DNA of 35,310 nucleotides, from assembly GCA_018648405.1 (NCBI GenBank), contig JABGRF010000241.1, positions 1 through 35,310 on the forward strand, written 5' to 3'. Below the pieces are notes generated by a model. The model was not told the DNA's origin and searched no databases. It saw nothing but the letters and a program-made list of their open reading frames with translations. How positions within the stretch are numbered: position 1 is the first letter of the stretch; each line of letters starts with the position of its first letter. The stretch comes from Candidatus Scalindua sp. GTDB lineage: Bacteria; Planctomycetota; Brocadiia; Brocadiales; Scalinduaceae. Below, piece by piece: positions 3,735 through 35,310 of this stretch. The position numbers were made by a program, and so were the translations under genes.

Positions 3735-5306
3735 TTAGTGTTCTTCACCAAAACAAGGATGATCGCCGTGATCACATGCATCTTCGACTATATCACCCTC
3801 TGTCCTCTTATAACCAGTAAGAAGATCAGTATACTCACCATGCTTCCAGAAATCGAAAGCCTTATGCTCTATACCAACCTCTTTTTCAAGAGTAGAAATT
3901 CTTCTTAACTTTGAAGCTTCATCCTTGATCTGGATAAGATGTCTGTCCATTGGGAACGCACCTGCATTGTAAGAAACGTCATCAATTGCGAAATGCGCTG
4001 CTGATTTGTATACAGCAGTTACCTGGTAAACAATCATCTCAACTGCAAGTCTTTCAATGTTTGATACATTGTAGAATCTTGGAGCACCACCTGGTAGTAA
4101 ATTCATCGTGTGACCACCAGTGTAGTCAGGTGCAAGGTCAGCCGGCATTGGATCAAACAAGCCTTCAAGATATAACCCAACAATAACGCCAACTGCTTCA
4201 CGCCATTTAGTGAAACTGACGTTAATCTGCTCATCCATACCATACATTTGCTCTGCAGCAAATCTAGGTGAGTGACAACCCTGACATTTCTTTATCCATG
4301 CATCCCTCTTAGCTTTATGCTGAGGTGCACCTCTGTCGAGCAGAAACATACCCATATGTGCATAATCAGTTGCCATATGCTGTACGTTGTGATTACCATC
4401 TTCACCTATATGACAGTACGCACATGTAGGAGTACGGTAATTCTTAGGAGTCATCTTCTTATCCCAATCCCAAGTATCACCTTCCATCATATAAATCTTA
4501 CCATGAAAAGAGTTGTACCAGAACTCATATTCAGCATGGTCTACACCCATGTGACATACACCACATGTATCTGGCTTTCTTGCTTCTGATGGTTTGAACT
4601 GATGCCTTGTATGACATCCGTCACATCTGTTTCCAGCAATACCATGACATTGAGCACAACTAGCAACTTCTTCCGCAGGTTTTCCAATTTGCCAAGCAAA
4701 TTCGGTAACTGATATATCCCAAATTGTGTGAGAGCCATGCGAACCCTGCCCACCAGCAAGATGTTCACTTTTTTCCTTTGCATGACACTTACCACAAGTG
4801 GTGACGCTAGGCATTATCAATTCCTGATGGTTGTTACCATGACATGCATCACATCCTACTACCTGTTCCGCATCCATCGAAGCTGTCTTTCCACCTTTTG
4901 AGTGCTGACTCAGTTTCCAGTCTACTACTATTCGTGGCGTCTGGATTGAATGACATAGAACACACTCTTCAGGCTTAAATACTCCCTCAACCTTTTGTGT
5001 TGATACATAGTAATCATCTGGATTATAGTACAATGCTGTTATAGGTAAGTAATTAAATATGTTTTTGAACTTACCCTCACCCGGAAATGTTCTATCTGGA
5101 CCAGTGTATCTAGCTGTCAAACCAAAGACATACATTGTTCCGTCATCATCATCTCCAACAGCCTGTCCATAAATTGATGATGCTACATCCTGAAACGTTG
5201 GTGCTGCATCATCAGCACTTGCATTTTTGCAGAAATTCATCGGCAAAAGAGCACAACCGGCAATGATTGCCAGCATCAACAAACAACCTTTTATTGATCG
5301 TATCAT
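3735..5306 (-). CDS. Octahaem hydroxylamine oxidoreductase-family protein
   Basis: A 523-residue exported multihaem protein of the HAO family, enzymes that oxidise hydroxylamine or hydrazine or, in some anammox paralogues, reduce nitrite. A signal peptide occupies residues 1-31 (cleavage near NASA/DD). Eight CXXCH motifs start at about residues 115, 152, 171, 217, 228, 248, 296 and 341. By position the fourth (CAQCH) would be the catalytic P460-type haem. The C-terminal helical part (360-480) normally supplies the Tyr that cross-links this haem. Here the segment SNIERLAVEM appears to have Ala where I would expect Tyr, so a reductive (nitrite-reducing) paralogue is possible. This is inference without an alignment. 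It has its own promoter, a long leader and a terminator, and lies between the hzs and trp/bc genes. I cannot assign the exact substrate. Confidence 0.92.
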   Translation of the reverse strand: MIRSIKGCLLMLAIIAGCALLPMNFCKNASADDAAPTFQDVASSIYGQAVGDDDDGTMYVFGLTARYTGPDRTFPGEGKFKNIFNYLPITALYYNPDDYYVSTQKVEGVFKPEECVLCHSIQTPRIVVDWKLSQHSKGGKTASMDAEQVVGCDACHGNNHQELIMPSVTTCGKCHAKEKSEHLAGGQGSHGSHTIWDISVTEFAWQIGKPAEEVASCAQCHGIAGNRCDGCHTRHQFKPSEARKPDTCGVCHMGVDHAEYEFWYNSFHGKIYMMEGDTWDWDKKMTPKNYRTPTCAYCHIGEDGNHNVQHMATDYAHMGMFLLDRGAPQHKAKRDAWIKKCQGCHSPRFAAEQMYGMDEQINVSFTKWREAVGVIVGLYLEGLFDPMPADLAPDYTGGHTMNLLPGGAPRFYNVSNIERLAVEMIVYQVTAVYKSAAHFAIDDVSYNAGAFPMDRHLIQIKDEASKLRRISTLEKEVGIEHKAFDFWKHGEYTDLLTGYKRTEGDIVEDACDHGDHPCFGEEH

Positions 5307-5634: not shown

Positions 5635-5678
5635 GCTCGAAAACGAGCATTTTTTAAGAATCTGAAACTAGATTCTTA
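5635..5678 (-). repeat. Two small hairpins at the hzsA 3' end
   Basis: A 9-bp perfect inverted repeat (TAAGAATCT and its complement, arms 5655-5663 and 5670-5678) includes the hzsA stop codon in its stem. A 5-bp GCTCG/CGAGC hairpin at 5635-5648 follows it. Neither has a U-tract on the minus strand. They may be 3'-end stabilising structures ahead of the true terminator. Confidence 0.5.
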
Positions 5679-8096
5679 TCTGCCACGATATCCTGGGTAT
5701 GGGTCAGGACCTTGAATGTTGTCCCATTGTGCGCCCAAATCTACCCACTCAACAAATAAGTATCTTTCTTCTGGTGTTAGCATGTTGTTATGCATAACCC
5801 TACCACCAACAGGTATAGGATTATTCCTTGCTGCGAACTGTGAAAGTTCTTCTTCATAAAGTCTCCAGATAAGAAGACTGTTTATTGCAGCACTTGGATT
5901 AACATACTTACCACCTATATTTGTGTCTCTACCCCTCTGAGGAGCTAAGAGACTGTTGTATGACTGACTGAATGCTGCAACGCCACCAACAGAAACCAAG
6001 CTTGTACTACCACTCAGATTAGGAGCCTGTGTAGAACTATGACAAGAAGCACATTTAGCATCTAAGATTGGCTGAATGTCTCTTCTGAAATCAACAGTTC
6101 TCAACTTGTCAATATTCAAACCTTCAACTGCTGCTGAAGTTGTACCTGAAGAACCACCATAATAAACATCATTAGGTACAACAACGTCATCACCATGTTT
6201 CACACCAGCATAATTACCATTCTTGTCAACTCTTAAGTTAGCCCACATAAATGGAGAATCATAATGGCTCAAATCACTGAACCACCAGTTGTAAAGCGCT
6301 TTTGTGTGAATGTTCAGATAACCCTTCTTATCATAAGAACCCCAGTGACAACCTGTACAAATCCTACCACCATATGGCCTTACATATGCCCATGATAGCT
6401 GAGTCTGTACTGCCATACCTTTGTCATCCAGAATCTGAGTGCAATATGCTTCATCACCTGGATGTGAACTTACAACAGAACCATCATCTTCTACATACTG
6501 ATAACCGAACATACGTCTCTGAGAGTAAGATGTTCCAGAGTTAGAACTTGACTTAGCACCACCAAGAAGGTGTGCACCAGCACCCTGAAGATATCTTTTA
6601 GAATCCGTCTCATTCGGCAGTACAGCATTTAGTACTCTGATAGCCTTGATGTCACCATGACCAACTTCTTTTGCCCTCTGATGTGCATAAGGACCAATTG
6701 GAAGATTTGTCAATGTTGTATCAAAGCATATTGTTGTACTCCATGAGTGAGGATATCCTTCAACTTTAACCTGGTCAAACGGCTGATAGGTTACAGTTGT
6801 TACACCAAACTCTGCTCCTGCTGTAAACGAGTTTATCCATCTTGGTTTGTAACGTGGATAAACAGGCTGAGGCTGATGATCATTCCATTCCGGATCATCG
6901 TATACCACTTCAGAAACAGTGCCCTTATCAGCACAGAAGTAGTAAAGACCAAAATCCTGTCTTTCAGCAGAAGACACCATTAGACGACCGTCTGGCAATG
7001 GATGAGGACTTCTATAAAGTCTTCCATCATTGCTCAACCTGGACTGTGTCTTAGCATGAGGAGTAGTCCAACTAACTCTTGCAAGATTACCTATGCCTGA
7101 GTTGTTGTCTAATGCCTCAATGTAATACACATATCCATCTGAAGCCTCTCTTGCCTGAATCTTAGGCGCATCTGGCTGCTCAGAAACCTCATTACCATAG
7201 ATATGCCTAGGATAAGAACCGTCCCAGTTATCTACAAGCAGGCATGTACTGCCGTTAGAGTTGTTATGAGTACCATTAGCTTGAGTACTACTGAACATGA
7301 TATTTCCGTCACGTGTGAGTGTTGGGTCAAAATTAGAACTTACATTGTAAGTAATCTTGTCCATAACAGTATCAACGTTAGGCATATCAAGTCCTACAAG
7401 CAAATGACCACAGATTCTATCCATTGACTTTCCACCCTGAGGGTCAAGTCTATAGATGTCAAAGTTGTAGTCTCTACCAAACTCATCCATTGAATTGTCA
7501 GGTGAATAAGCAAGCATCAAGAAACCCATCTTAGGAACTGTGCCACGAGGAGCCCAGTCACCTTCAAAATATCTAGCTCTTGATATAACTCTACCTTCAC
7601 CTTCTTCAATAGCACCAGCCGCATAGTAGATAGGACTTCTTGATGTACCAGGAGCATCAGTTAACTGCCTGACGCCTGTACCATCAATATTAACTTCCCA
7701 TATCTGACAACCACCACCATTTTTGTGAACACCTGCAAATGCAACCTTTGAACAATCCCAGTTAAGACAAGGATCAAAAGCACTCTGGAAGTCATTTGTT
7801 AGGACTTTCAGGCTTCTTGTCTTCGTGTTGTATGATACAATCCTGCTATCATTAGAAACATAATTTGGGTATTGATGATATGGATCGCCAGCAGTTGTAG
7901 GCTTTGACTGTGTGAACACAACAGTATCAACCTCTCCCTGAATCTCTTTTGCCATACCCCAGTAGTCGCCCCAAATAGCCTTACCAGGCTTAGCTCCACC
8001 TGTCATGACTTGAGCCTGGCAGTCTGCACTGCTAAAGAGCCCCCATATAGCAACAACACCAACCAGGGCAATTGACTTCAATAATCCCTTCTTCAT
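5676..8096 (-). CDS. hzsA: Hydrazine synthase alpha subunit
   Basis: Catalytic subunit of hydrazine synthase, which makes hydrazine from NO and ammonium in the anammoxosome. The 806 residues comprise a signal peptide (1-28), a propeller domain rich in TolB/PD40-like blades (about 60-450), a middle haem domain and a C-terminal cytochrome domain. The first haem motif is CTGCH (580-584) followed four residues later by Tyr588. In the Kuenenia structure, as I recall, the active-site haem alpha-I is ligated by a Tyr at exactly this spacing while the motif His binds zinc. The second motif is CASCH (682-686), and H769 in GGRVMHN is a candidate distal ligand. Length is close to the Kuenenia subunit. 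AGGAG lies 11 nt before the ATG. It is the last gene of the operon, 122 bp after hzsBC. Confidence 0.96.
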   Translation of the reverse strand: MKKGLLKSIALVGVVAIWGLFSSADCQAQVMTGGAKPGKAIWGDYWGMAKEIQGEVDTVVFTQSKPTTAGDPYHQYPNYVSNDSRIVSYNTKTRSLKVLTNDFQSAFDPCLNWDCSKVAFAGVHKNGGGCQIWEVNIDGTGVRQLTDAPGTSRSPIYYAAGAIEEGEGRVISRARYFEGDWAPRGTVPKMGFLMLAYSPDNSMDEFGRDYNFDIYRLDPQGGKSMDRICGHLLVGLDMPNVDTVMDKITYNVSSNFDPTLTRDGNIMFSSTQANGTHNNSNGSTCLLVDNWDGSYPRHIYGNEVSEQPDAPKIQAREASDGYVYYIEALDNNSGIGNLARVSWTTPHAKTQSRLSNDGRLYRSPHPLPDGRLMVSSAERQDFGLYYFCADKGTVSEVVYDDPEWNDHQPQPVYPRYKPRWINSFTAGAEFGVTTVTYQPFDQVKVEGYPHSWSTTICFDTTLTNLPIGPYAHQRAKEVGHGDIKAIRVLNAVLPNETDSKRYLQGAGAHLLGGAKSSSNSGTSYSQRRMFGYQYVEDDGSVVSSHPGDEAYCTQILDDKGMAVQTQLSWAYVRPYGGRICTGCHWGSYDKKGYLNIHTKALYNWWFSDLSHYDSPFMWANLRVDKNGNYAGVKHGDDVVVPNDVYYGGSSGTTSAAVEGLNIDKLRTVDFRRDIQPILDAKCASCHSSTQAPNLSGSTSLVSVGGVAAFSQSYNSLLAPQRGRDTNIGGKYVNPSAAINSLLIWRLYEEELSQFAARNNPIPVGGRVMHNNMLTPEERYLFVEWVDLGAQWDNIQGPDPYPGYRGR

Positions 8097-8175
8097 AAGT
8101 TGGTTTACTCCTTTCCTTTTAATATATTAAAATGAAACACAATTAATTCAGTTAAGTTAAATCTACCTACAGATT

Positions 8176-8201
8176 ATAGCCTCTGTAATATCAGAGACTA
8201 T
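8176..8201 (-). repeat. Hairpin between hzsBC and hzsA
   Basis: On the minus strand ATAGTCTCTG and CAGAGGCTAT form a 10-bp stem with one G-U pair and a 6-nt loop, starting 17 nt past the hzsBC stop. No U-tract follows, so it is not a terminator. It may be an mRNA-stability or processing element in the operon. Confidence 0.5.
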
Positions 8202-8218
8202 TGCCCCATAAAATGAAT

Positions 8219-10291
8219 TTATAAAGCCTTCATAAACTCAACAAGATCCTGCAGATCCTGATTATTCAGATTAGATGTAACACCATGCATATCTAATGTT
8301 GTGCAAGTGTTATCAATCGTATTCATCAAAGTCTGCGCACTACCATCATGGAAATACGTACCAGAAGCGTAGATATCTCTTAATGTTGGAGTATCAAACT
8401 CTTTTACAAGATCAAGTCCAATAATTGGCACATCATACTCTTCACTGTAAGGTCCAACTCCAGTTTCTAGAACTGTAGTGTTAAACACAGCTCCCGGTGT
8501 TGTCCTGAAACCATCTTTACCAACTCTTCCGGTTCCAACATCATGAGTCTGAGCGTCACTGAACAATGCTCTTGGATTTTTAGGATCACCAGGATGACAC
8601 TCAATGCAACCAACCTTTGGATCACTAAATACTTTCCATCCTCTTTTCTGAGCTTCAGTCAATGAACCATCTTCTTCTCTGAAAGGACTTCCTGTAAACT
8701 CTAAAGATCTGATATAAGCAATCAAAGCCTCAAGTCTTTCAGGAGAGAAATTCTCACTTCTGAACACAAATCCAGGGTCACGACCACATACTCTGTCAAT
8801 CGAAGAAGCAGCTCCTACGATTTCATCAGGATGACCTGTGAATCCTTCATGCCTAAATGGAGGAAGGTATCTTCCACCTCTAATGTACTTAGTGTTCTTC
8901 CAGCTACCCCAACCTTCATCACCAAGGTCCCAGATCGTGCCTGTTGTCTGGCCTCTTTCATAGTGGCAACTTGCGCATGAATACTCACCCTGCAGTGTCC
9001 ATGATGCTTCGTTAAACAAAAACTGTCCATATCTCACCAATTCACTCTTATAAGGTGAGTGCTTTGCCCTGTAATGTACTTCAGGAACTGTAAGCGGCTC
9101 TCCTCTTTCGAGTGGCTCCCACTCAGGACCAGTCTGCATTGTTGCAATAACTGAAGGCTCATCACCTACCTGAATAAAAGACAAACTGTTTGAGAAATAG
9201 TTTGCAGTGTACATAGTCTTACCATCCGGTGAAAGAGCAACTGAACTAGGGCCTAGACCCACATTAACTCTTGCTACCAGATAATCAATCATCAATGTCA
9301 GGTCATTCTTCATGTCATCAAGCTCTTCTTGAGTGCTTGAAACAACGATGTCCAACAACTTTGGCAGATCAAGGATTGTTATCCTGTGCATACTTCTAAC
9401 ACCAACAAAAGCATATTTTCCGTCAGGAGAAACAGTTACTCCGTATGGATTTCCATCATAATTGTTATGCTCATCTAAAGGCATACTTGCAACCTTACCG
9501 CCTCTTTTAGTCTCTACAACAGCGAGGTTGTTAGAGAATATCTGAGCATTTTCAGCTTCACAAACAGGAAGCCAGTTCTTTGGCTGTTCCATTGTGACAA
9601 GTACATATGCTCCATCAGGCGTGTACTCTACACCCCTCAGGTTACAACTCTGATAGATATTTCTGTGCTCAGTAACCCTACCAGTTGAAAGATCTACAAA
9701 ATCTACGCCTCTGTTGATCTTACCAGTTGTATCCAGGACAACTGCAGCAGATTTTCCATCAGGAGAAATTGCTATGTCCCTTGGACCATAATCAGTAGTT
9801 CTGATTTCGCCAATCTTGCTGTTCATTGCGGTGTCAATAATATCAACAGTGTTCCACATACTACCTGAACAACAAACATATGCCTTAGAACCGTCTTTAG
9901 ACAATTTAATACTACATGGCCAATCACCAACCTTTATTGTCTTTACAACAGCCTTATTGCCTACGTCAATGACTGACACGGTATCACTTTCAGCGTTACA
10001 AACGAACAAAGTGCGACCGTCCAATGTATAAACACTGGCTTCCGGCTGTACCTGTACAGGCACTTCACCAGTCACTTTTTTGGACCTAACATCAACAAAC
10101 GACACGCTGTGTCCCGACTGATTGCATAAAGCCAACTCGCTACCATCAGGCGAAACTGCTACGTGGAATGGGGATGGATGCTCAGTCCTTACCCTTGTGC
10201 CCTGTATAAAGCCAGCACCAGCACTTTGAACCAGCGCTAAGCTTAGCATTCCCGCACCCAGGAATCCCAATATCCAAGCCTTTTTCTTCAT
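8219..10291 (-). CDS. hzsBC: Hydrazine synthase fused beta-gamma subunit
   Basis: A 690-residue fusion of the non-catalytic beta propeller and the dihaem gamma subunit of hydrazine synthase. Gamma is thought to reduce NO to hydroxylamine, which passes to HzsA. A signal peptide covers residues 1-26. Residues about 35-380 carry YVTN-type propeller blades with recurring SPDG turns (VAVSPDG, IAISPDG, VTVSPDG, VALSPDG). Residues about 400-690 resemble MauG/bacterial cytochrome c peroxidase, with haem motifs CASCH (439-443) and CIECH (562-566) and the family signature TLRDI..GTYFHDGSAQTL (about 636-655). In Kuenenia these are two genes, whereas fusion is known from Scalindua. A strong TGGAGGTG site lies 5 nt before the ATG. 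It lies upstream of hzsA and downstream of the Cys-rich gene by 51 bp. Confidence 0.96.
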   Translation of the reverse strand: MKKKAWILGFLGAGMLSLALVQSAGAGFIQGTRVRTEHPSPFHVAVSPDGSELALCNQSGHSVSFVDVRSKKVTGEVPVQVQPEASVYTLDGRTLFVCNAESDTVSVIDVGNKAVVKTIKVGDWPCSIKLSKDGSKAYVCCSGSMWNTVDIIDTAMNSKIGEIRTTDYGPRDIAISPDGKSAAVVLDTTGKINRGVDFVDLSTGRVTEHRNIYQSCNLRGVEYTPDGAYVLVTMEQPKNWLPVCEAENAQIFSNNLAVVETKRGGKVASMPLDEHNNYDGNPYGVTVSPDGKYAFVGVRSMHRITILDLPKLLDIVVSSTQEELDDMKNDLTLMIDYLVARVNVGLGPSSVALSPDGKTMYTANYFSNSLSFIQVGDEPSVIATMQTGPEWEPLERGEPLTVPEVHYRAKHSPYKSELVRYGQFLFNEASWTLQGEYSCASCHYERGQTTGTIWDLGDEGWGSWKNTKYIRGGRYLPPFRHEGFTGHPDEIVGAASSIDRVCGRDPGFVFRSENFSPERLEALIAYIRSLEFTGSPFREEDGSLTEAQKRGWKVFSDPKVGCIECHPGDPKNPRALFSDAQTHDVGTGRVGKDGFRTTPGAVFNTTVLETGVGPYSEEYDVPIIGLDLVKEFDTPTLRDIYASGTYFHDGSAQTLMNTIDNTCTTLDMHGVTSNLNNQDLQDLVEFMKAL

Positions 10292-10342: not shown

Positions 10343-10921
10343 TTAAAAATCCGGTTCATGCGGACATGTTCCAGACATTTTACAAACAGTTACAAGTTCT
10401 TCGCCGCAATCCGAACACTTACCATTTGAAAGCAAATGCTCCGCATACTCCATTTTGTGATCAATCTCAAAACCTGCACCTGGTTCATCATACTCTTTAC
10501 CACATTTTTTGCAACCAAAATTAAGCTTCGCCCTAACTGCAGTACCTGTCAAATCGTCGTTGCATACTTCGCAAAACCCAATATTAAAGGCGTAGCAGGC
10601 TTTAGAATTCTCGCATTTATCATTAACGCAATTATATTTAGTCCTAATGCATGACCAAGATTTCACAACCTTATGCTTCGTAACTTCTTCACCCTCTTTA
10701 TGCTCCTTAGTATTCCAGATATATTTCAAGTTACCACATTCTGTCCAGGTAAATATCTCTTTACATTCTGTACACCAATTCAGCAACTCGTTAACTTTCA
10801 TTGGGCATGGTCCGCCCTTTTCAGCCTTGACGATACTAAACTGGCTACCCATGAGCGCAACCATACATACAAATACTCCCAAACATAAAACCCTACCGAA
10901 TCTTTTTTTCAATGTATTCAA
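10343..10921 (-). CDS. Exported Cys-rich protein of the hzs operon, unknown function
   Basis: I do not recognise a family. The protein has a signal peptide (about residues 1-33, ending IVKA/EKGG) and then about 160 residues with many Cys, mostly in CXXC pairs: CTEC, CEVC, CKKC, CSDC, plus CPMK, SCIRTKYNC and CVNDKC. None is followed by His in a haem motif, so zinc-ribbon or rubredoxin-like metal sites or disulfides are more likely than haem. I place the start at the TTG at 10921 because GGAGG lies 7 nt upstream. A TTG at 10939 also opens the frame but would put this ribosome-binding site inside the coding region. As first gene after the sigma54 promoter and directly before hzsBC, it could help assemble or metallate hydrazine synthase. 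That role is inferred from position only. Confidence 0.8.
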   Translation of the reverse strand: MNTLKKRFGRVLCLGVFVCMVALMGSQFSIVKAEKGGPCPMKVNELLNWCTECKEIFTWTECGNLKYIWNTKEHKEGEEVTKHKVVKSWSCIRTKYNCVNDKCENSKACYAFNIGFCEVCNDDLTGTAVRAKLNFGCKKCGKEYDEPGAGFEIDHKMEYAEHLLSNGKCSDCGEELVTVCKMSGTCPHEPDF

Positions 10922-10989: not shown

Positions 10990-11005
10990 AGCATTCCGCG
11001 TGCCA
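10990..11005 (-). promoter_or_regulatory. Sigma54 (-24/-12) promoter of the hzs operon
   Basis: The minus strand reads TGGCACGCGGAATGCT. It matches the RpoN consensus TGGCACG-N4-TTGCW at all but one position and has the diagnostic GG-N10-GC spacing. The start would be near 10979, giving a ~57-nt leader to the TTG at 10921. The gene directly upstream encodes a sigma54-dependent activator. Confidence 0.88.
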
Positions 11006-11087: not shown

Positions 11088-11143
11088 GTCAGCAGAAAAG
11101 ATTTGGCTGAATTCTGCCAACTTCAACTTTCACACTGTCAGCA
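11088..11143. promoter_or_regulatory. Putative upstream activator site of the hzs operon
   Basis: TTGGCTGAATTCTGCCAA at 11103-11120 is an 18-bp dyad (16 of 18 positions symmetric) centred about 130 bp upstream of the predicted sigma54 start, the usual distance for an NtrC-type enhancer. Two direct copies of GTCAGCA (11088-11094 and 11137-11143) flank it, 49 bp apart. Binding by the adjacent regulator is inferred. Confidence 0.6.
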
Positions 11144-11182
11144 AACTACCAGAGCAATCCAAATATGTCAATTTATTTGTTG

Positions 11183-12571
11183 TTAATTTTGAGCATATTT
11201 CTCAAGCCGATATCTGAACGTCCCTCTGCTGAGACCCAGCAATTTAGCAGCCTTAGTTTTATTATTCTTGCTTTTTTTCAAAGCCTGCAAAACCAAGTGT
11301 TTTTCCAGCTCATCTATAGATATTCCTTCAGGTGGCAAATTAAAATTCACCATTTTATATGCATTGTCTTTTTCGCTTCGATAACCAGAAATTGATTCTC
11401 TTACTAAAGTAACAGGAAGATGATCCTCCGTCACCATGCTTCCTTTGCACAAGATCACAGCTCTTTCCATGCAGTTTCGTAATTCCCTTACGTTACCATC
11501 CCACCTGCTTGACACGAGCAGGTTTTCAACGTTCTTTGTCATTTTCAGCGACAACTTTCCCATTTTTTCAGAAAACTGCGCAACAAAGTTTCGTGCTAAC
11601 TGCAAAATATCCTCAGGTCTTTCCCTTAGAGGCGGTATTTTTATAGGAAATACATTTACTCTATAATACAAGTCTTCCCTAAATTGACCCTTCTTAACAT
11701 AATCCTCAAGGTTTTTATTACTGGCACAGATGATTCTAACGTCAACCTTTACCGTTTCAGATCCCCCAAGCCTCTCTAATTCCCGTGCTTCAATTAGTCT
11801 CAGCACTTTGGCCTGAACAATAGGATTCATCTCTGATATTTCATCGAGAAACAGCGTACCGCCATGGGCCATTTCAAAGCGACCCTTCTTGGATTTCTCT
11901 GCTCCTGTAAAGGCACCCTTTTCATAGCCGAATAACTCGCTTTCCAGCAGTGTCTCAGGCAAGGCAGCACAGTTAATCGAAACTAACGGCCCACCCTTCC
12001 TTAAACTATTGAAGTGGATTGCTCTCGCTACAAGCTCTTTCCCGGTGCCACTTTCTCCGTAAACAAACACGGTTGAATCCGTTCTGGAAACATCTCCAGC
12101 CAACAAAAGAACTTCCAATATCTTAGGAGAGTTACCTATAATGTTACCAAAATTATAATGCGACTCTAATTCCTTTCGAAGATATCGATTTTCCATTGCA
12201 AGAGATCTCATCTTCAGTGCTTTTTCCACTGCAACTGAAAGCGATTCACCCTCAAATGGCCTTACGATATAATCAAAGGCACCCTCTTTCATCGACTCCA
12301 CCGCAGTCTCAATGGAATCATCCCCGGTTACAACAATAACCGGCAACTCGGAATCCATTGATTTAATCTGCTTAAGGAATTCCAATCTGCCCATTTTCGG
12401 CACTCTCAGATCAGTAATAATCAAGTGCAGTTTTTCGCGCTCAACAAAATCAACTATCGATGTCAGGTCTTGAGCCTTAACAACCTCGATATTATCCATC
12501 TTATCGAACATAACCTTGACGTTGCGTATTATTCGCTCTTCATCATCAGTTATCAACACCCTACTAACCAC
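11183..12571 (-). CDS. Sigma54-dependent response regulator (NtrC family)
   Basis: A 462-residue activator with three domains. The receiver (1-120) has acidic pocket D9/D10 and phospho-acceptor D54. The AAA+ domain (about 140-380) has Walker A GESGTGKE (172-179), the sigma54-contact loop GAFTGA (219-224) and Walker B LFLDEI (240-245). A Fis-type helix-turn-helix lies at the end ([19 protein letters not shown]). The receiver's normally invariant Lys before Pro is Arg here (R104 in YIVRPF), which may change phosphorylation kinetics. The start is GTG at 12571 with GAGGA about 9 nt upstream. It is 42 bp after the cytochrome b gene, so probably in that operon, and is followed by the sigma54 promoter of the hzs genes, its likely target. 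No cognate kinase is adjacent. Confidence 0.95.
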
Positions 12572-12613: not shown

Positions 12614-13522
12614 TCAAAAAGCAAATATACTAAATATATCAATATTGAGATCTTTGATTAAATCCATAAAGAGTGACGCAAGAGAGCATATCACAGATGA
12701 CAGCATAAATCCCACCATAAGCAAACCAATAGTAAGAAGAGGCACACCCATCATTCTGGATACAAATTTTGCCATTGGAGATGACGGTTTAACCCTTAAA
12801 CCCTCTAACTGACCCTCTTCCTTCATCCTCTCATAGTAAGCACCTCTTTCATGCTTTACATGAGCCTCATCAATCTTACCCGTAAACATCGCCTCATCGG
12901 TAGGCATATTCTCAGGCAGCATGTGTGTATGGAGGAAATGAATTGAAAAGATAAATCCTGCAGCTAACAATGCTTCGTATCTATGTGCAACCAGAGCGAT
13001 ACTTGGTAAATCAATGTAGCTTGCAACGCTGACGGGTACAAGCCTCGTGGCTTGCACTGGAAACCAAAGAATATAACCTGTAACCGCCATAACCAATGTT
13101 CCCCACATAAGCGACAGATATTCAAATTTTTCCCAATATATAAATCTTTCAAACTTTGGTCGTTTACCCAGCCTGAAAAACCACAAGATATCTCCTAGTA
13201 TGTGCAACACATCCTTCGGTTGTATCAATAGAGAATCGGGCCCCCAGAACATGCCCCTATCTTTCTTTATTAGAGACTCGTAGGCCAGATACGCAAAGTG
13301 CAAAAAGGCTGCTACAAAAGTGAGGAGCGCACAAAGCCTATGAATATTACCAGCGGCAGGATAGCCACCCATAGCACCATACAACCACTGACCCCAAGCA
13401 TAGTCCTTGAACACCAAAGGCATACCGGTTAACACTAACCCGAAAAAACTTATAATTGTGAAAGTATGGCCAAGTCGATGAAACTTGCCAAACCGTAGTA
13501 ATGTTGTAGTATTATCAGCCAT
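12614..13522 (-). CDS. Membrane dihaem cytochrome b of the hzs electron-transfer module
   Basis: A 302-residue integral membrane protein resembling the cytochrome b subunits of formate dehydrogenase, Ni/Fe hydrogenase and thiosulfate reductase, which exchange electrons with quinones. I see about five hydrophobic segments (about 20-37, 60-82, 140-155, 178-198 and 258-285). Candidate b-haem ligands are H15/H19, H61, H75, H180 and H195/H198/H200. It overlaps the upstream multihaem cytochrome gene by 8 bp, which implies translational coupling and a complex. In Kuenenia a cytochrome b and multihaem c pair at this place upstream of hydrazine synthase is proposed to deliver electrons from quinol for NO reduction. 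I apply that role here by synteny. Confidence 0.85.
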   Translation of the reverse strand: MADNTTTLLRFGKFHRLGHTFTIISFFGLVLTGMPLVFKDYAWGQWLYGAMGGYPAAGNIHRLCALLTFVAAFLHFAYLAYESLIKKDRGMFWGPDSLLIQPKDVLHILGDILWFFRLGKRPKFERFIYWEKFEYLSLMWGTLVMAVTGYILWFPVQATRLVPVSVASYIDLPSIALVAHRYEALLAAGFIFSIHFLHTHMLPENMPTDEAMFTGKIDEAHVKHERGAYYERMKEEGQLEGLRVKPSSPMAKFVSRMMGVPLLTIGLLMVGFMLSSVICSLASLFMDLIKDLNIDIFSIFAF

Positions 13523-14522
13523 GATCAGATTTATTCTCCTTTCGATCGTCTAATATTGAGCCCAGCCATGATAAAAGCATATGCGTACCGAACTGCGCAA
13601 ATGTTACCACCAAAAGGCCAACATACGCCACGAAAAGAACGGTTAATAATGTCTGCGGACTCTTTACGATACTCTTGATTTCCGCAGGATCTTTTCTGAT
13701 ATTTTTTAAAGCTATCAACGCCGATTTATAATAACCAACGTCTTTGTAAGCCGGATGCGCAACATGCTTAACAAAACTGTTGCCAGCGCCTGGATGACAC
13801 TTACCACAGGTTTCCTTCGCCTTTTCCGGACCTAATGTAGATTCAGGATCTGCTGAATTGAGAATAGTATGCTGCCCGTGACAATCGACACACGTCGCTA
13901 TATCCAAGCCTACATACCCCATTGCAGTAACCTGACCATGTAGATTATTACGATAAGAACGGTAGTATTTTTCATGACAACCTCCGCATTTTTCTATCGT
14001 ATCCCCTCTGTGCTCCAGGTTATCAGCCCGAGGTGTATTCATCTTAGATTTCTGTCCCGTGTGGCAATACTTACAAGTAGGTAGCTGTACACCTTTTTCC
14101 TGCATCAGGCTTGCATGACTACCTTCCAGGAATGTTGCGGCCGGATCATCGTGACAGAATGTTACACAATCTACCGGTTGTAAATTTGGATAGTGCTCTC
14201 CTTCAGAATCTTCCAGATCAGAATGACAATCGATACAGTAGAAGTCCTCACCACCGTGAGCAGATGCATGGTACTCTTCTTCATCCACAACCATTGTCAC
14301 AATCTCCACTTCGCCAGTGACATGGTCTACCCTGACCTTGGATGCTACCTCTGCCGGATCTGCATGACACTCCATACAGTCACTATTCTCTTGAGCAAAG
14401 AGGCTATTTGATGAAAAAGAAGAAATGAAAATAAGACATGAGATAAAGCATGAAATGATTACAAGCTTACATATTTTACTATCTTTAAATACTTCTGTCG
14501 TTGTTTTTGACAATGATACCAC
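13515..14522 (-). CDS. Membrane-anchored multihaem cytochrome c of the hzs electron-transfer module
   Basis: A 335-residue cytochrome with a signal sequence (about 18-43) and a C-terminal membrane helix (about 292-314), so the haem domain lies outside the membrane face and is anchored next to the cytochrome b. Canonical haem motifs are CMECH (49), CIDCH (96), CKYCH (150), CGGCH (179), CVDCH (211) and CGKCH (239). A seventh, CVTFCH (119-124), has three residues between the Cys. With that CX3CH site counted the protein would be heptahaem. The start is GTG at 14522 with GGAG 8 nt upstream. It overlaps the next gene by 8 bp. The likely role is passing electrons from the cytochrome b to hydrazine synthase or its carrier, inferred from context. 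Confidence 0.88.
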   Translation of the reverse strand: MVSLSKTTTEVFKDSKICKLVIISCFISCLIFISSFSSNSLFAQENSDCMECHADPAEVASKVRVDHVTGEVEIVTMVVDEEEYHASAHGGEDFYCIDCHSDLEDSEGEHYPNLQPVDCVTFCHDDPAATFLEGSHASLMQEKGVQLPTCKYCHTGQKSKMNTPRADNLEHRGDTIEKCGGCHEKYYRSYRNNLHGQVTAMGYVGLDIATCVDCHGQHTILNSADPESTLGPEKAKETCGKCHPGAGNSFVKHVAHPAYKDVGYYKSALIALKNIRKDPAEIKSIVKSPQTLLTVLFVAYVGLLVVTFAQFGTHMLLSWLGSILDDRKENKSDHG

Positions 14523-14751: not shown

Positions 14752-15492
14752 CTACTTAGCATTTGGAGGCTTTGTTTTGTACCATGGATCCAGCTCTACA
14801 TAGCCCTTCCATTTCTTTGCGTCCGGCTTAACATCATCAATGCCATCATGGTCCCTGTGATCGTCTCTCTTAATGTAATCCTTTGTAAAGAGCCTTTCTT
14901 GACCTTTGCTATTTTTCGTACCTTCACACTTAGGACACTTGTTTTTTGAACCTGCATCTTCCCAGTGGCAAGTAAGGCATTGTTTTTTTATCGTCTTGTA
15001 CTTATTTATGCCGGCTACTAATAGACCTGCGTCGTATTGAGCTTTTCTGGCAGCCATAGGATCTTTTTTCAACAACTTCTTAAATGCGTCTTTGCCCTTA
15101 CCACCAAGGTTCTTCTTAGCCTTTATATAACCCTCTCCAGGGCCATGGCATGCTTCACAACCAACGTTTTCAATAAAGTCCTTTGTACCCTGCTTGGACT
15201 TACCCTTCTTTATCTTCATGCCCAACGCTGTAGCATGACATTTTAAACACTCAGGATTACTCTTGTCTTCATCAGTTTTCAACCTGCTGAAAGTGTTATA
15301 ATGCTGATTCTTCATCTTCTTATATTCTTCACCTTCAAAACAGCCTTTAGACATATGGCACTTACAGCCACCATTACCCATATATTTCCACTTCTGCTTA
15401 CCGGCAAAACTCTGGCTACATTGAAAGACTACAAGCGACAATGATATAGCTACGAATGTCAAAACACATCTTCTTAAATTACGGCCAAACAT
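14752..15492 (-). CDS. Cytochrome c554-like tetrahaem protein with an unusual haem motif
   Basis: A 246-residue exported cytochrome (signal peptide about 1-31) of the c554 type, recognised from the N-terminal pattern of first haem site followed by a GEEYKKMKNQHYNTF stretch. Three canonical motifs are present: CLKCH (82-86), CEACH (112-116) and CLTCH (172-176). The first site is CKCH (43-46), with only one residue between the Cys. A later CPKC (186-189) lacks His. The rest is very Lys-rich, suggesting an acidic redox partner. It has its own sigma70-type promoter and lies upstream of the hzs regulatory and electron-transfer genes, so it may be a small carrier in hydrazine metabolism. This is inference. 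Confidence 0.85.
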   Translation of the reverse strand: MFGRNLRRCVLTFVAISLSLVVFQCSQSFAGKQKWKYMGNGGCKCHMSKGCFEGEEYKKMKNQHYNTFSRLKTDEDKSNPECLKCHATALGMKIKKGKSKQGTKDFIENVGCEACHGPGEGYIKAKKNLGGKGKDAFKKLLKKDPMAARKAQYDAGLLVAGINKYKTIKKQCLTCHWEDAGSKNKCPKCEGTKNSKGQERLFTKDYIKRDDHRDHDGIDDVKPDAKKWKGYVELDPWYKTKPPNAK

Positions 15493-29126: not shown

Positions 29127-32100
29127 TCAACACTTGAATTCCAAATCATTTATATATTTTGCCAACGCTTCATGTTTAAACGGTTTTTTTAGAAAGAAGT
29201 CTACCGTTAACCCTTTATCTGCCATCGATGCAAGACTGCCACTCCAGCCAGAAATTATGCCTATCTTAGGTCTCTTCTTTAACCCGTTAAGAGACTTTAC
29301 CACATCATACCCACAGATATTTGGCATCGCAATATCACATAGCACAAGGTCAAAACGTTCACCCTCTATCATATTTATAACATTAACGCCATTATCAGTA
29401 GTTTTAACATCATGGCCACCTTTAGAAAGGAATTGATTTAGTATATCTCGCATACTTTCTTCATCATCTATAACCAGGATGCGTAGGCTTTTCTCATTTG
29501 TTTTCTGTTCCGGCGCAGAAATCTTTATTACTCTTCTTCTTTTAATGGTCACTGGAAATTGCATGGTAAATGCTGTACCTTTTCCCAACTCACCGTCCAC
29601 CTCTATTTTACCGCTATGCCTGGTCACTATACCGTAAACTATACTCATACCCAATCCAGTACCTTCAACTCCCTTAGTAGAAAAGAACGGGTCAAATATA
29701 TTTTTCTTCACATTCTCAGACATACCTTCTCCGTCATCAGTAACGTTTACAAATACAGTCTCATTATCACTCCATGTACCAAATGAAATTTTTCCACCAC
29801 CAGACATTGCATCAAGTGCATTATTGATTATGTTAATAAATACCTCTCTTATTTCTGCAGGATTACACATAATAGATGGAACCCTCCCCATGCCTTCTGT
29901 GTCAATTCTGTAGTCTATGCCTCCGGCAAGCGCCTCATTCTGCCATCTGGGCTTTGTAAAATCAATAGAATGCCTTATTAAATCCCTGATATCAAAAGAG
30001 ACAAATTCTTTAGTGTCAGGACTGGTCTTAGTAAATTTAAGCATATTACCGGCTATTTCAGCTCCATCATCGGCAGCCTTCATTATGATCCTTAAAGCAT
30101 CAGCCAAGACTTTATCATCTTTGTAGTCTTCCTCCAGCAACTGAACATTACCAGAGATAATCGCCAGAAGATTGTTAAATTCATGGGAAATACCGGCAGT
30201 TATTGCACCGATAGACTTCAGTTTTTCTGACTGTAATAGCGCTTTTTCCATCTTTTTATGCTCTGTGATGTCTTGGGTAGTTCCAATCATACCAATAACA
30301 TTACCACTATCATCAAGTTGTAATTCTCCACGACTATACACCCATCTAGTTTCACCATCGGATTTTCTTATTATAAGATAATCTTTATTAAACGGTATCT
30401 TCTTATCCAATACACTCTGTTGATAGGTGGCCAAACTATCTCGGTGATCTGGGTGAATTATTTCAACCCAATCTTCAACGCTGTACTCTCTTTTTTTTCC
30501 TATACCCAATATAGAATATAGCATTTCCGTTCCAGACCAAATGCCTGTAGTCACATTAAGTGTAAAACTACCAATCTTACCCACACGTTGTGCCTCTGAC
30601 AGACGTTTTTCACTCTGAATTAGCGTCTCCTCTGCCTGCCTACGTTCGGTTACATCTGTGACAAACACAGTAAACCCCGTAATATGATGTAAATTGTCAT
30701 AAATCGGGTTAAAAATCAATTCATACCAAAATCGACTGTTAGCTTGACCATATTCCTCAATTTTGACAAAGCTCTCACCTTTCGTGACTCGCTTGTAATT
30801 TGTTTCGGCTTTTAGACGGTCATCTTCTACGGAAATATACGAAAGGATATGCCGGCCAATCTCAATATCAGCGCCATACACTTCTTTCATCTTTTTTACA
30901 TGAGCCATGTTAAAGCTCAAATAATTGTAGCTCGTATCCAGAACAAAAATAATAACATTATCAGGACTCTCGATAACGGCGCTTAGTAACGAATTCGATC
31001 TTTGAAGCGCCTCACCTGCCTGTTTGCTCTCAGTAATATCATCCTTAACAGCAATGAAGTTTGTAATAACACCTTCAGCATTTTTTACAGGAGAAATGGA
31101 TGCAGACTCCCAATATAGTCCGCCATTCTTTTTCCTGTTACAAAATTCCCCCTTCCACTCATTGCCTGATTTAACAGTTTCCCATAGTTCATTGTAAACT
31201 TCAGGGGGTGTTTTTCCAGATTTCAAGATACCTGGATTTTTGCCAATAGCTTCTTCGATACTATAGCCTGTAAGTTGCTCAAACCTTGGATTGGCATACT
31301 CAATATTGCCTTCAGCATCTGTAATTACAATAGTGGCAGAACTGTGTTTTATCGCTTGAGACAATTTAGCAACATCGGCAGTACGCTCAATCACACGTTG
31401 CTCCAATGATTCATTAAGTGTTTGAATTATCTCTTTTGCCTTTTTCTCATGAGATGCACGATCAGATATGGTATAGAAGCAGACTACAATAAATCCCGTA
31501 AGCAACAAACCACCTATCAGAAATCCCCAAGGATACCAAATGTATCTTTTTTTCATAAATACTGGAGTAGGTTTACATACTATTGACCACTTACGGCCGG
31601 CTACATTTAATATAGTCGAAACATACAACCCCTCTGATTTTATTTCTTCCAGAGACAAAGGAGGGCTGACATCATGTCCTAACCGTGATGGATGATAATA
31701 GAGAAATTGCACATCCTGAGGGTTTGAGGTATCAAAAAGATAGACATCTACACCTTGCCCTTTAAGATAACCTAGTGTCCCCTCTACAAGATCACCTACT
31801 CTAAACACACCTGAGACAAGTCCTGTTAAATTTGCACGTCTCTCCTCGATTGTGTCTATAGAAGCCTGTTTATGATAAACAGGTACAAATATCAGGAATC
31901 CATACTGGTCACCTTCTTCCTGTACCAGTGTAATACGTGAAGTCCCGACCGCTTTTCCTGTATCACGTGAGAGGCACAGGGCTTCAAACCGTTCTTGATT
32001 AGTTGACAAGTCAAAACCCATGGCAACCTCATTACCTATATAAGGCTCTATATAATAGACAGGAAAGTGTTCCTTGCTATCATCAGCTCTTACCACACCT

Positions 32101-32510
32101 CCCTGTGGTAGCATCTTAGTTATCTGGTAGTCCGGATAGCCTTCAGCCTGTACCTCCCGCTCATGATCTTCACGTTGTTGGCTAGAAATGCGTGGTATCC
32201 ATCCCAGTGCCTGAATATCATTATGATACGCAAGTAAGTATTTGCAAAATTCATCAAATCCATCCCTTGTTACATATTCACTACTTCTAAATAGTGAGTA
32301 AATGGATTGAAGAGCTTGCTCGTTGTTCTCAATCTCTCTTTCTATGGAGTTGACCCTGTCCATTGCAACAAGCATGAAATCATTTTTTATTTTTGTTGTT
32401 TGATATCCACGTACAACAAAAAACAGGGATATTGATATACATAACCCTAGACAAACAATTAATATAGTTTGTAAGTTTATTTTTATTTTTTCAGGTTTTG
32501 TTGTCTTCAT
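29127..32510 (-). CDS. CHASE-PAS hybrid sensor histidine kinase with C-terminal receiver
   Basis: A 1127-residue membrane sensor. Transmembrane helices lie at about 13-34 and 325-347 and enclose a periplasmic-type CHASE domain (GDQYGFLIFVPVY, YIEPYIGNEVAMGFDL). A short coiled coil (350-385) leads to three PAS domains (about 386-495, 505-622 and 632-750). The kinase core has phospho-accepting H776 (GISHEFNNLLAI, the NtrB-like H-box), N-box N897 (NIINNALDAM) and G-boxes DDGEGM and GTGLGMSIV. A receiver domain follows (1008-1127) with phospho-Asp D1059 and Lys K1109. No DNA-binding output is attached, so a phosphorelay partner elsewhere is needed. Whether it talks to the sigma54 regulator at 11183-12571 is unknown. 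No Shine-Dalgarno site is evident. Confidence 0.93.
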   Translation of the reverse strand: MKTTKPEKIKINLQTILIVCLGLCISISLFFVVRGYQTTKIKNDFMLVAMDRVNSIEREIENNEQALQSIYSLFRSSEYVTRDGFDEFCKYLLAYHNDIQALGWIPRISSQQREDHEREVQAEGYPDYQITKMLPQGGVVRADDSKEHFPVYYIEPYIGNEVAMGFDLSTNQERFEALCLSRDTGKAVGTSRITLVQEEGDQYGFLIFVPVYHKQASIDTIEERRANLTGLVSGVFRVGDLVEGTLGYLKGQGVDVYLFDTSNPQDVQFLYYHPSRLGHDVSPPLSLEEIKSEGLYVSTILNVAGRKWSIVCKPTPVFMKKRYIWYPWGFLIGGLLLTGFIVVCFYTISDRASHEKKAKEIIQTLNESLEQRVIERTADVAKLSQAIKHSSATIVITDAEGNIEYANPRFEQLTGYSIEEAIGKNPGILKSGKTPPEVYNELWETVKSGNEWKGEFCNRKKNGGLYWESASISPVKNAEGVITNFIAVKDDITESKQAGEALQRSNSLLSAVIESPDNVIIFVLDTSYNYLSFNMAHVKKMKEVYGADIEIGRHILSYISVEDDRLKAETNYKRVTKGESFVKIEEYGQANSRFWYELIFNPIYDNLHHITGFTVFVTDVTERRQAEETLIQSEKRLSEAQRVGKIGSFTLNVTTGIWSGTEMLYSILGIGKKREYSVEDWVEIIHPDHRDSLATYQQSVLDKKIPFNKDYLIIRKSDGETRWVYSRGELQLDDSGNVIGMIGTTQDITEHKKMEKALLQSEKLKSIGAITAGISHEFNNLLAIISGNVQLLEEDYKDDKVLADALRIIMKAADDGAEIAGNMLKFTKTSPDTKEFVSFDIRDLIRHSIDFTKPRWQNEALAGGIDYRIDTEGMGRVPSIMCNPAEIREVFINIINNALDAMSGGGKISFGTWSDNETVFVNVTDDGEGMSENVKKNIFDPFFSTKGVEGTGLGMSIVYGIVTRHSGKIEVDGELGKGTAFTMQFPVTIKRRRVIKISAPEQKTNEKSLRILVIDDEESMRDILNQFLSKGGHDVKTTDNGVNVINMIEGERFDLVLCDIAMPNICGYDVVKSLNGLKKRPKIGIISGWSGSLASMADKGLTVDFFLKKPFKHEALAKYINDLEFKC

Positions 32511-33001: not shown

Positions 33002-35310
33002 CTATGCTACCTGTATGTCACACTCCGGCAACTCTTCTTTTGTAAGAACCGACTCCTCTGGACTATGCTCTGTCGCAGCAGCCTTGAGTGAGTTAAGTCG
33101 GGATATCATAAAGTAGAGTAGAGGCACCACACCGGCAAAAAAGAGCACACCACCCACCGCACGCATCCACGTCAACACCTGGAAAGTACCGCCAAGAATA
33201 AATTCCTGCGAGCGGGCTACCCAATAGCCATTTTCAACAACCGACTTGAATTGTAACACTCCGGCAGGGAATGTATCCATCACCACCATCAGCAGGAGTC
33301 CCACGTTAATCGCCCAGAAGGTAGAGCGCAGAAGCCTTACGTTCCAGCGCCTGGCGGTTATAACATGTCGGCTGCAAAACAGAACTGCCGCTATCGAAAG
33401 GTTACCGTAAACGCCCATCAAAGCCGCGTGACCGTGATTGACAGTTAGGTAGGTACCATGTTCATAATAATTTATTATCGGAAGGTTTATAATCAAGCCA
33501 AATACACCTGCACCGAAAAAGTTCCAGAAATTTACGGCAATAAGGAACAGAAATGCCTCTGAGAATCCGAATGATGATCCTGTTACGGCTGAATTTGTTG
33601 AACGACTAAATGAATATCCCGGCACCCGTACAAACTTCCAGACTTCGAGCGTCAGCAGTACAAGTGGAATAACCTGGAGTGTTGAGAAAACGCTTCCCAT
33701 AGCCATAAGAGCGGCAGGCTTTGCATTCCAGTAAAAGTTGTGAGAAATACCCAACAGGCCTGAGCCTAGAAACAGCAGTGTCGCCAGATAGATCACCCTG
33801 ATCGCACCCTGCCGTGAAACCAAACCCATGAGAACCATATAGCAGGCAATAATCATTGTTGTAAATACCTCAAAAAAGCACTCTGCCCACATGTGAATAA
33901 CGCACCAGCGCCAGAAATCGGCAATGACGAAATTGGTATTCTTCCCGCCCACAAAGCTTGACAAGAACAGAATTGTAATAGCCACAACAGAGTATAGAAT
34001 CCAATATGGTAATGAGAATGCTGATTGTCCCTTCAAAGCCGGTTTTACCCCGCGATATATAATCACGGACCACATAACAAGTGCCGCAAAGAGAACAACC
34101 TGCCACAATTTACCAAGCTCAACAAATTCCCAACCCTGGTTGCCAAGTAACCTCCAATGATCACCAAGCAGGTTCTTTGGCCCCAGGAAACATCCTACGA
34201 ACATACCAACAACAACTGAAACCAGCAAGCCGAAGAGTATGTTGATAAGGAGTACCTGACGCTTCGGCTCCTGCCTGTAAATTCCGGGAAGAATAAAGAT
34301 GGAACCAGCTATCCAGCAGGTCGCTATCCATAGAATAGATAACTGTACATGCCAGCTACGCGTAATAGTTATCTGCAAAAGTTCAGAAATGTTATAGCCG
34401 AAGAAAGTTGTAAATCCGACAAAATCGTGAATCGTCAAGACACCGGCCACTATCTGTATGAAAAACAGTGAAACCGCAACCACAAAAAACTTGTATGTTG
34501 CACGTTGACTAGCTGTTGGAGCTGATGCATCAACACTCTTATTATCAACAGGGTTTTCACTGACCTGTAACTGCGAGGACTTGGAATAGTAACTATAAGT
34601 ACAGAGAACCGCACCCAGACCGAATATCAGAAATAGCATTCCGATAACGCTCCATAGTATTACTGACGGTGTCGGAGTGTTCCCGGCGTACTCATCAAAT
34701 GGCCAGTTATGGGTATAACTGGATTCACCTCCGGGCCTTTCCACCGCACAAACCCACGCACCCCAGAAGAAAAAGGCCGAAAGGTCTTTAAGTTCAGCAT
34801 CGTCTGTAATATAACCTGCTGGTTTAAAAGCCTCCTTGTGATCTCCCTTGAATTTTGAACTATAGTATTCCGTCAGACGTTCTGCTGCATACGCCTGCCC
34901 CTCAGTAAGCATTACGATATTTTTCTCTCTGTCATAACGATTCGCTTTGAGTTCACGCTTCACCCTGACAGAGATACCATCTTTCTCTATTTGAGATAAC
35001 TCATCCGTATTACCACTTGTAACCTGATTGCCATAAAAATCGTTCATCTCAACTGCAACCTGGTGGAGTGCTTCAGCGGTAAAATCCGGCCCACGGGCAG
35101 CACCATCCCCGAACATGCTTCCGTATTCCATCAAAGCATATCTCTGGAAGATCAGCTGTCCACGTTCCACGGCACTCTTTTGAACAATTTCTTCCCCTGA
35201 AGGTGAAACATAATCAGGTTTTGGAGGCGCATCTTTGTACGTACTGAAACCCATAAATATAACACCGGATGCACCTACAACCAGAACAGCAAGTAAATAT
35301 TTCCACCAAT
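33002..35310 (-). CDS. Quinol NO reductase-like protein with NO dismutase-type active site, 5' partial
   Basis: At least 768 residues, open to the window edge; the first in-frame ATG at 35254 is internal because an upstream helix (WWKYLLAVLVVGASGVIF) belongs to the protein. Numbering below is from that ATG. The N-terminal extracytoplasmic domain and the FFFWGAWVCAVERPG signature are those of quinol-type NorZ. About a dozen helices follow. Haem ligands are present: H302 (SWHVQL), H607 and H609 (NHGHAALMGVYG), and H454 with E458 (HMWAEC). However, the FeB di-His motif is H505-N506 (ISHNFYW), the Glu of FSxLE is Gln (Q527), and the quinol-site Glu and Asp appear replaced (H276..G280; RAVGG near 698-702). 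These changes are those described for NO dismutases. The function is NO detoxification or 2 NO to N2 plus O2. Confidence 0.85.
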   Translation of the reverse strand, partial: WWKYLLAVLVVGASGVIFMGFSTYKDAPPKPDYVSPSGEEIVQKSAVERGQLIFQRYALMEYGSMFGDGAARGPDFTAEALHQVAVEMNDFYGNQVTSGNTDELSQIEKDGISVRVKRELKANRYDREKNIVMLTEGQAYAAERLTEYYSSKFKGDHKEAFKPAGYITDDAELKDLSAFFFWGAWVCAVERPGGESSYTHNWPFDEYAGNTPTPSVILWSVIGMLFLIFGLGAVLCTYSYYSKSSQLQVSENPVDNKSVDASAPTASQRATYKFFVVAVSLFFIQIVAGVLTIHDFVGFTTFFGYNISELLQITITRSWHVQLSILWIATCWIAGSIFILPGIYRQEPKRQVLLINILFGLLVSVVVGMFVGCFLGPKNLLGDHWRLLGNQGWEFVELGKLWQVVLFAALVMWSVIIYRGVKPALKGQSAFSLPYWILYSVVAITILFLSSFVGGKNTNFVIADFWRWCVIHMWAECFFEVFTTMIIACYMVLMGLVSRQGAIRVIYLATLLFLGSGLLGISHNFYWNAKPAALMAMGSVFSTLQVIPLVLLTLEVWKFVRVPGYSFSRSTNSAVTGSSFGFSEAFLFLIAVNFWNFFGAGVFGLIINLPIINYYEHGTYLTVNHGHAALMGVYGNLSIAAVLFCSRHVITARRWNVRLLRSTFWAINVGLLLMVVMDTFPAGVLQFKSVVENGYWVARSQEFILGGTFQVLTWMRAVGGVLFFAGVVPLLYFMISRLNSLKAAATEHSPEESVLTKEELPECDIQVA

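Follow-up and report, generated by a model that had tools for sequence, protein, structure and literature searches.

The locus described here raises the questions of whether it encodes a complete hydrazine synthase, what the fusion of the beta and gamma subunits in a single reading frame tells about the lineage of the host, and how the corresponding operon could be controlled. Hydrazine synthase is the signature enzyme of anammox and, to our knowledge, little seems known about its regulation in anammox bacteria, the genetics of which is hard. About half of marine nitrogen loss has been attributed to anammox (PMC12607021).

The window, i.e., the whole stretch of 35,310 nucleotides that was analysed, corresponds to contig C108 of a Candidatus Scalindua MAG of 2.57 Mb, distributed over 406 contigs and 78% complete. 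All on the minus strand, the genes follow one another from 5' to 3' in the order c554-like cytochrome, six-haem cytochrome, cytochrome b, NtrC-family regulator, Cys-rich protein, hzsBC, hzsA, HAO-like protein, trpB and trpA, beyond which, on the same strand, lie genes read as the Rieske protein and the cytochrome b of a bc1 complex. The span 5676-10291 coincides exactly with hzsA plus hzsBC, and the conserved cluster around both genes extends further. The structural genes are as follows:

3735..5306, minus strand: gene for an octahaem HAO-like protein of 523 aa with 8 CxxCH, directly behind hzsA; its nearest match is the Kuenenia-type HAO (6t5e/4n4j), and it scores under the hydrazine dehydrogenase cut-off
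5676..8096, minus strand: hzsA, hydrazine synthase alpha subunit, 806 aa, ATG start with Shine-Dalgarno sequence AAAGGAAAGGAG (ORF, 5C2V chain A, NCBIfam)
8219..10291, minus strand: hzsBC, fused hydrazine synthase beta-gamma, 690 aa, ATG start with Shine-Dalgarno sequence TTTTGGAGG (NF052342, 1609 bits)
8219..9160, minus strand: gamma part of hzsBC, residues 378-690, MauG/CCP-like dihaem domain
9161..9166, minus strand: fusion point, the two residues left between the chain B match and the chain C match of 5C2V
9167..10291, minus strand: beta part of hzsBC, residues 1-375, signal peptide (about 26 aa) and seven-bladed YVTN-type propeller
10343..10921, minus strand: Cys-rich exported protein with 15 invariant Cys and several CxxC, heading the operon in main hzs loci of the families compared
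12614..13522, minus strand: membrane cytochrome b of the electron-transfer module before hzs, of the kuste2855-2856 type by gene order
13515..14522, minus strand: multihaem cytochrome c with 6 CxxCH, from the module that includes the cytochrome b at 12614..13522
14752..15492, minus strand: triheme c554-like cytochrome, of the kuste2854 type by gene order

The hzsA product aligns over residues 30-803 with chain A of the Kuenenia enzyme (5C2V, 1150 bits), scores 1608.7 bits against the NCBIfam model hydrazine_alpha (cut-off 800), and its locus holds the single HZS_alpha match of the source genome. In HzsBC, residues 27-375 correspond to chain B (512 bits) and residues 378-690 to chain C (604 bits), no stop occurring between the two parts, and the beta-gamma fusion model NF052342 hydrazine_BC covers 690 of 690 positions with 1609.3 bits (cut-off 1250), no difference from that model being found. 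Chance as the source of these matches is excluded. The alpha, beta and gamma subunits are all encoded at 5676-10291, and the end-to-end matches to chains A, B and C, together with the NCBIfam models, bear out a preliminary description of this DNA as a complete hydrazine synthase locus made of hzsA and hzsBC; its account of a propeller and a MauG/CCP-like dihaem domain joined in one 690-codon frame without a stop agrees with the two ORFs found. Its attribution to an anammox organism is likewise in keeping with the named relatives of hzsBC, which belong to Candidatus Scalindua (95% identity to isolate P6-7, 90% to S. arabica and OFTM1). On sequence grounds, both the identity of the enzyme and the beta-gamma fusion are established.

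The alpha residues around the haems were numbered from the alignment of hzsA to 5C2V chain A, set against PMC12758564. Haem alphaI is associated with CTGCH at 580-584, in the context CTGCHWGSY (580-588), where Tyr588 is the equivalent of Kuenenia Tyr591, the iron-ligating residue following the haem alphaI motif (PMC12758564). Haem alphaII is associated with CASCH at 682-686, the distal His769 being equivalent to Kuenenia His772. The gamma part contains the haem motifs CASCH (439-443) and CIECH (562-566), together with Glu459, Cys502 (=Cys165) and Asp505 (=Asp168). Tyr591, Cys165 and Asp168 are all counted as functional residues, Cys165 as the third covalent cysteine and Asp168 as a residue implicated in proton supply (PMC12758564, PMC12607021). 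Glu303 occurs in hzsA where Kuenenia possesses the zinc ligand Cys303 (GNC changed to GNE in the chain A alignment); this zinc site does not define the family, because the Cys303 ligand has been reported to be absent from Scalinduaceae (PMC12758564). According to the current model, NO is converted to hydroxylamine at the gamma subunit, and hydroxylamine passes through a tunnel to be joined with ammonia at the alpha subunit (PMC12758564, PMC12607021). HzsA would accordingly be expected to carry the haem site for joining hydroxylamine and ammonia, and HzsBC to unite the propeller and the predicted NO-reducing dihaem domain in one putatively exported chain.

With respect to known systems, the three subunits match those of Kuenenia stuttgartiensis kuste2859-2861 (5C2V) end to end, the haem ligands are kept, and by gene order the c554 cytochrome, the b/c module, the sigma-54 regulator and the Cys-rich protein are neighbours in both organisms. 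In contrast, beta and gamma are separate in Kuenenia, and the alpha subunit there has Cys303 instead of Glu. Candidatus Scalindua profunda resembles the window in its fused HzsBC (scal00025) and in the HAO-like gene located directly behind hzsA (scal01318) (PMC3655542), but the locus numbers of its hzsBC and hzsA are far apart in a fragmented assembly, whereas both genes are adjacent in one operon in the window, as in most of the relatives examined. The window thus contains an ordinary, correctly recognised anammox locus, of which both the enzyme and the fusion were previously known.

The HAO-like neighbour reaches about 620 bits with Kuenenia-type HAO (6t5e/4n4j) versus 364 bits with hydrazine dehydrogenase; a C-terminal piece of hydrazine dehydrogenase was matched at the edge of another contig of the source genome, C391. 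A second HAO-like gene of 564 aa, absent from the window, occurs behind trpA in some relatives (L032:216-1910, L044:2903-4597) and shares 37% with the HAO-like gene beside hzsA. At the end of the contig, an incomplete gene at 33002-35308 encodes a quinol-type nitric oxide reductase, closest to 3ayf (563 bits), which would use up NO, the substrate of hydrazine synthase. A PAS-rich hybrid sensor kinase with a receiver domain is located at 29127-32510, and a relative with 61% identity occurs in the same neighbourhood of genome G051 (L140).

The gamma subunit was matched in 58 of the 62 genomes of the order, many of the matches being weak or fragmentary. Within the genus of the window, hzsBC is fused in G047, G049 (two copies), G052, G055 (two copies) and G057, and hzsB and hzsC are split in the groundwater genomes of the same GTDB genus, G050 (RIFCSPLOWO2_12_FULL_40_19) and G058 (Hainich H41-bin245). 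Split genes also occur in other genera of the family (G045, G046, G059, G060), in the Brocadiaceae examined, in Anammoxibacter and in G003; the main loci of G051, G052, G053, G054 and G056 were left without a fused or split score, contig breaks falling inside hzs in several genomes. In a tree of eight flanking proteins, the fused genomes all fall into a single clade (support 1.0), whose sister group is the split pair G050 and G058 (0.99); the hzsBC tree agrees with this tree (support 0.80). The HzsA tree alone, in which the fused clade is unresolved (UFBoot 47-53), is too weak to place the fusion, and its FastTree version nests the split pair G050/G058 among the fused genomes.

The same joint is found in 8 fused genes of 6 genomes, and every complete gene encodes 690 aa, the copy of 684 aa in G057 being cut by the contig end. 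Split Scalinduaceae genes read ...SVIQTPVN-stop, followed by a spacer (mostly 62-73 nt) with a ribosome-binding site, the gamma signal peptide and then GEAQVIATIQTG. Fused genes read ...SVIQ-TGDDPQ-VIATIQTG or near variants of constant length, the conserved form of the joint being S(V/F)IQ-xG(D/E)(D/E)P-x-V(I/M). The simplest account of this difference would be one deletion of about 150 nt in the marine clade, which would have taken out the end of the beta gene (its last few codons and its stop), the spacer together with the ribosome-binding site, and the signal peptide of gamma, after which a single signal peptide would export both the beta and gamma parts. Taken together, the flank and hzsBC trees and the common junction support a single origin of the fusion, predicted to lie in the marine clade of Scalindua. 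As separate genes are retained in the groundwater genomes of this GTDB genus, the fusion marks a marine subclade and not the genus Scalindua as a whole. The earlier proposal that the fusion points to the Scalindua lineage consequently holds for the fused marine clade but not genus-wide, and a fused beta-gamma gene has also been described outside Scalindua, in the MAG nzgw515 (PMC8862662). Separate beta and gamma genes in close relatives, which the preliminary description had regarded as evidence against its view, do exist in G050 and G058 and leave the reading of the present locus unaffected. The fused gene and a 75 kDa beta-gamma protein were shown in S. profunda in 2013 (PMC3655542), and the fusion in Scalindua is also mentioned in PMC9723696, PMC11104535 and PMC12758564, so the fusion itself is already known and its placement within the genus is what is new here. 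Dated after the split between marine and groundwater Scalindua, it can serve as a marker for the clade and calls for caution in primer design and annotation.

Other readings of the fused locus have to be weighed against this one. Homologues with fused beta-gamma and an adjoining alpha homologue do exist (PMC12758564, PMC10732223), and hzsA and hzsBC might accordingly be taken for such distant propeller-cytochromes from other Planctomycetota, Bacteroidota and others, devoid of hydrazine synthase identity. Yet the distant homologues lack the Ser590-Tyr591 pair, the Tyr of which is present in the window hzsA, and some of them possess extra haems, whereas only 2+2 haem motifs occur in hzsA and hzsBC; the scores of about 1609 bits to both hydrazine_alpha and hydrazine_BC and the synteny with Brocadia and Scalindua hzs loci also argue against this interpretation, which is already refuted by the conserved residues and whose probability is negligible. 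An assembly or frameshift artefact could be suspected in a MAG of 406 contigs that is 78% complete, the more so as hzs duplicates mis-assemble in relatives (the main copy of G046), but it deserves hardly any credence, given that the same joint recurs in 8 genes of 6 separately assembled genomes and that the fused protein of S. profunda was seen on a gel (PMC3655542). It is, finally, quite unlikely that the fused form was ancestral in Scalinduaceae, or in all anammox bacteria, and was split repeatedly, or that several fusions took place. Such a history would accommodate the fused state of non-anammox homologues, the proposed fission in the anammox ancestor followed by re-fusion in Scalinduaceae (PMC12758564), the fused nzgw515 outside Scalindua (PMC8862662), and the N-terminal strand of gamma, which in all families tested resembles the strand that ends a YVTN propeller repeat. 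However, the split genes of the compared families contain a spacer and a gamma signal peptide, both of which each split would have to reinvent, and in both the flank tree and the hzsBC tree the fused genes, with their identical joint, group together in a single clade. The locus therefore very probably encodes the hydrazine synthase of a marine Candidatus Scalindua, in which beta and gamma were fused once, in the marine clade, by a deletion of about 150 nt.

The position of the joint within the propeller deserves some consideration. It probably falls between strands three and four of the seventh blade, in its last hairpin, and this hairpin, SNSLSFIQVGDEPSVIATMQTGPEW, resembles other hairpins such as that of blade 2, SDTVSVIDVGNKAVVKTIKVGDWP. 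The alignment of hzsBC to the archaeal YVTN propeller 1L0Q continues through the joint, and most of the solved propellers compared align only to about residues 35-374 of HzsBC. In the separate gamma subunits of every family tested, the first strand is YVTN-like and represents the best such match in the whole gamma sequence. According to the AlphaFold prediction for HzsBC, residues 380-386, the first strand of gamma, form the fourth strand of blade 7; this model, built from 6 near-identical sequences only, is good for the propeller, and most of the gamma half has a pLDDT below 40, so that the domain arrangement is not readable. The first gamma strand could close blade 7 or, alternatively, this role could be played by the N-terminal beta segment IQGTRVRT. 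The position of the joint would fit the proposal of an ancestral fusion that was split and later re-fused (PMC12758564).

The region between the regulator gene and the operon contains the elements by which the hzs genes could be controlled:

10990..11005, minus strand: sigma-54 -24/-12 site TGGCACGCGGAATGCT, 11/12 to consensus with GG-N10-GC spacing, in the gap between regulator and operon
11103..11120, minus strand: dyad TTGGCAGAATTCAGCCAA, candidate upstream activator site, 115 nt from the -24 box
11143..11171, minus strand: sigma-70-like element TTGACA-17-TAGTTT, conserved in Scalinduaceae only
11183..12571, minus strand: sigma-54-dependent response regulator of the NtrC family with receiver, AAA+ and Fis-type HTH domains, corresponding to kuste2857 by gene order

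Only four copies of the strict sigma-54 pattern occur in the 2.57 Mb of the source genome, the others being located in a flagellin/fliD-type intergenic gap, which is a common sigma-54 setting, about 120 nt before a FecR-like gene, and inside an ORF; looser matches with two mismatches elsewhere in the window are at chance level only. An NtrC-family activator gene precedes most hzs loci in Brocadiaceae and Scalinduaceae, and 38 loci of both families with such a regulator were compared. They belong to three kinds, namely the main operon (regulator, Cys-rich gene, hzsB and hzsC or hzsBC, hzsA), kinase-regulator-hzsB-hzsC, and kinase-regulator-hzsC alone; six hzs loci devoid of a complete regulator within reach (L034, L037, L041, L074, L163, L167) were not counted. 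In 36 of the 38 regulator-hzs gaps, a GG-N10-GC site reaches 8/12 or more, for a dinucleotide-shuffle expectation of about 6.5 and a single antisense hit (1/38), these counts overstating the evidence as orthologous loci share ancestry and are not independent. At 10/12 or more, 21 gaps out of 38 have a site versus 0 in antisense, and in the control regions upstream of eight other genes no site reached 10, the loosest cut giving between 0 and 3 hits per gene. All 17 loci of the kinase-regulator type possess the site. It is broken or decayed in G056 and missing in G059 at the main operon. The dyad TTGGY-N8-RCCAA lies 112-116 nt upstream of the sigma-54 site in 17 of 21 main loci (0.4 expected); first noticed in Scalinduaceae, it is present in 6 of the 8 Brocadiaceae that were not used to find it, including G032, which belongs to the same GTDB genus as Kuenenia hertensis. 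In families f2 and f3, which have no regulator, no comparable sigma-54 site was found at the hzs operon.

The regulators keep Walker A and, in most cases, GAFTGA or GSFTGA, replaced by GAFTSA or GAFTNA in some Brocadiaceae; in the window regulator, Walker A is located at 172 and GAFTGA at 219. RpoN occurs in 58 of the 62 genomes of the order and was not found in the 78% complete MAG of the window. The arrangement resembles NtrC-type sigma-54 promoters in its GG-N10-GC -24/-12 element, its dyad about 115 nt upstream and its adjoining gene for an NtrC-family response regulator; the window dyad TTGGC-N8-GCCAA does not appear to be the NtrC site. For the Kuenenia cluster, PMC12053348 lists a sigma-54 regulator, kuste2857, and an uncharacterised kuste2858, and excess hydrazine lowers both of them along with hydrazine synthase. 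No description of an hzs sigma-54 promoter was found in the open-licence literature.

A different reading would consider the conserved block as a sigma-70 promoter with the dyad as its operator, the -24/-12 look-alike being incidental. TTGACA-16/17-TAnnTT is indeed conserved in most Scalinduaceae loci, even where the sigma-54 site has decayed (G056, G059), but it is absent in Brocadiaceae, where the -24/-12 site is kept, as is the dyad at 112-116 nt, and the 17/17 score of the kinase-regulator-type loci for GG-N10-GC also makes this reading rather unlikely. Transcription of the operon from the sigma-54 promoter at 10990-11005, driven by the activator encoded at 11183-12571, which would probably bind the dyad at 11103-11120, is quite likely. 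At a broader scale, sigma-54 control by cis-encoded NtrC-family regulators is likely for the hzs genes across Brocadiaceae and Scalinduaceae, including the main operon, the extra hzsBC and the lone hzsC. The main promoter would be preceded, at about 115 nt, by a conserved activator site; both regulator and site are absent from the two remaining families examined. The predicted, conserved promoter is strong on comparative grounds and, together with its candidate activator site and the regulator encoded at 11183-12571, provides a testable hypothesis for the control of hydrazine synthase.

The Cys-rich gene opens the main hzs operon in all four families compared and corresponds by gene order to the uncharacterised kuste2858. 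Its start is probably the TTG at 10921, after AAAGGAGG, instead of 10939. The protein gave no reliable match in Pfam, in the PDB or by fold, the best Foldseek E-value being 0.93 for a model with a pLDDT of 68. Two diverged tandem copies of the gene are found in the split-gene Scalinduaceae loci L035, L049 and L051, and one copy in fused-gene loci.

Additional copies of the hzs genes occur in several relatives. The hzsB and hzsC of the main locus of G046 (L048:5063-7317) had been considered as pseudogenes replaced in trans by a second copy, a proposal that was dropped in view of the pattern of an unpolished duplicate: compared with the intact copy (L047), they show 8 mismatches and 28 gap openings in 2280 bp, and the main copy is probably an unpolished long-read duplicate, open to misreading as a pseudogene. 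In G049, two unlinked hzsBC copies (L033:8608-10699, L034:9294-11383) are 99.0% identical over almost exactly the open frame alone, which suggests gene conversion or a recent copy. A lone hzsC with its own start and no hzsB in between follows the kinase-regulator pair in L039, L151, L153, L156, L159, L162, L165 and L166, in both families.
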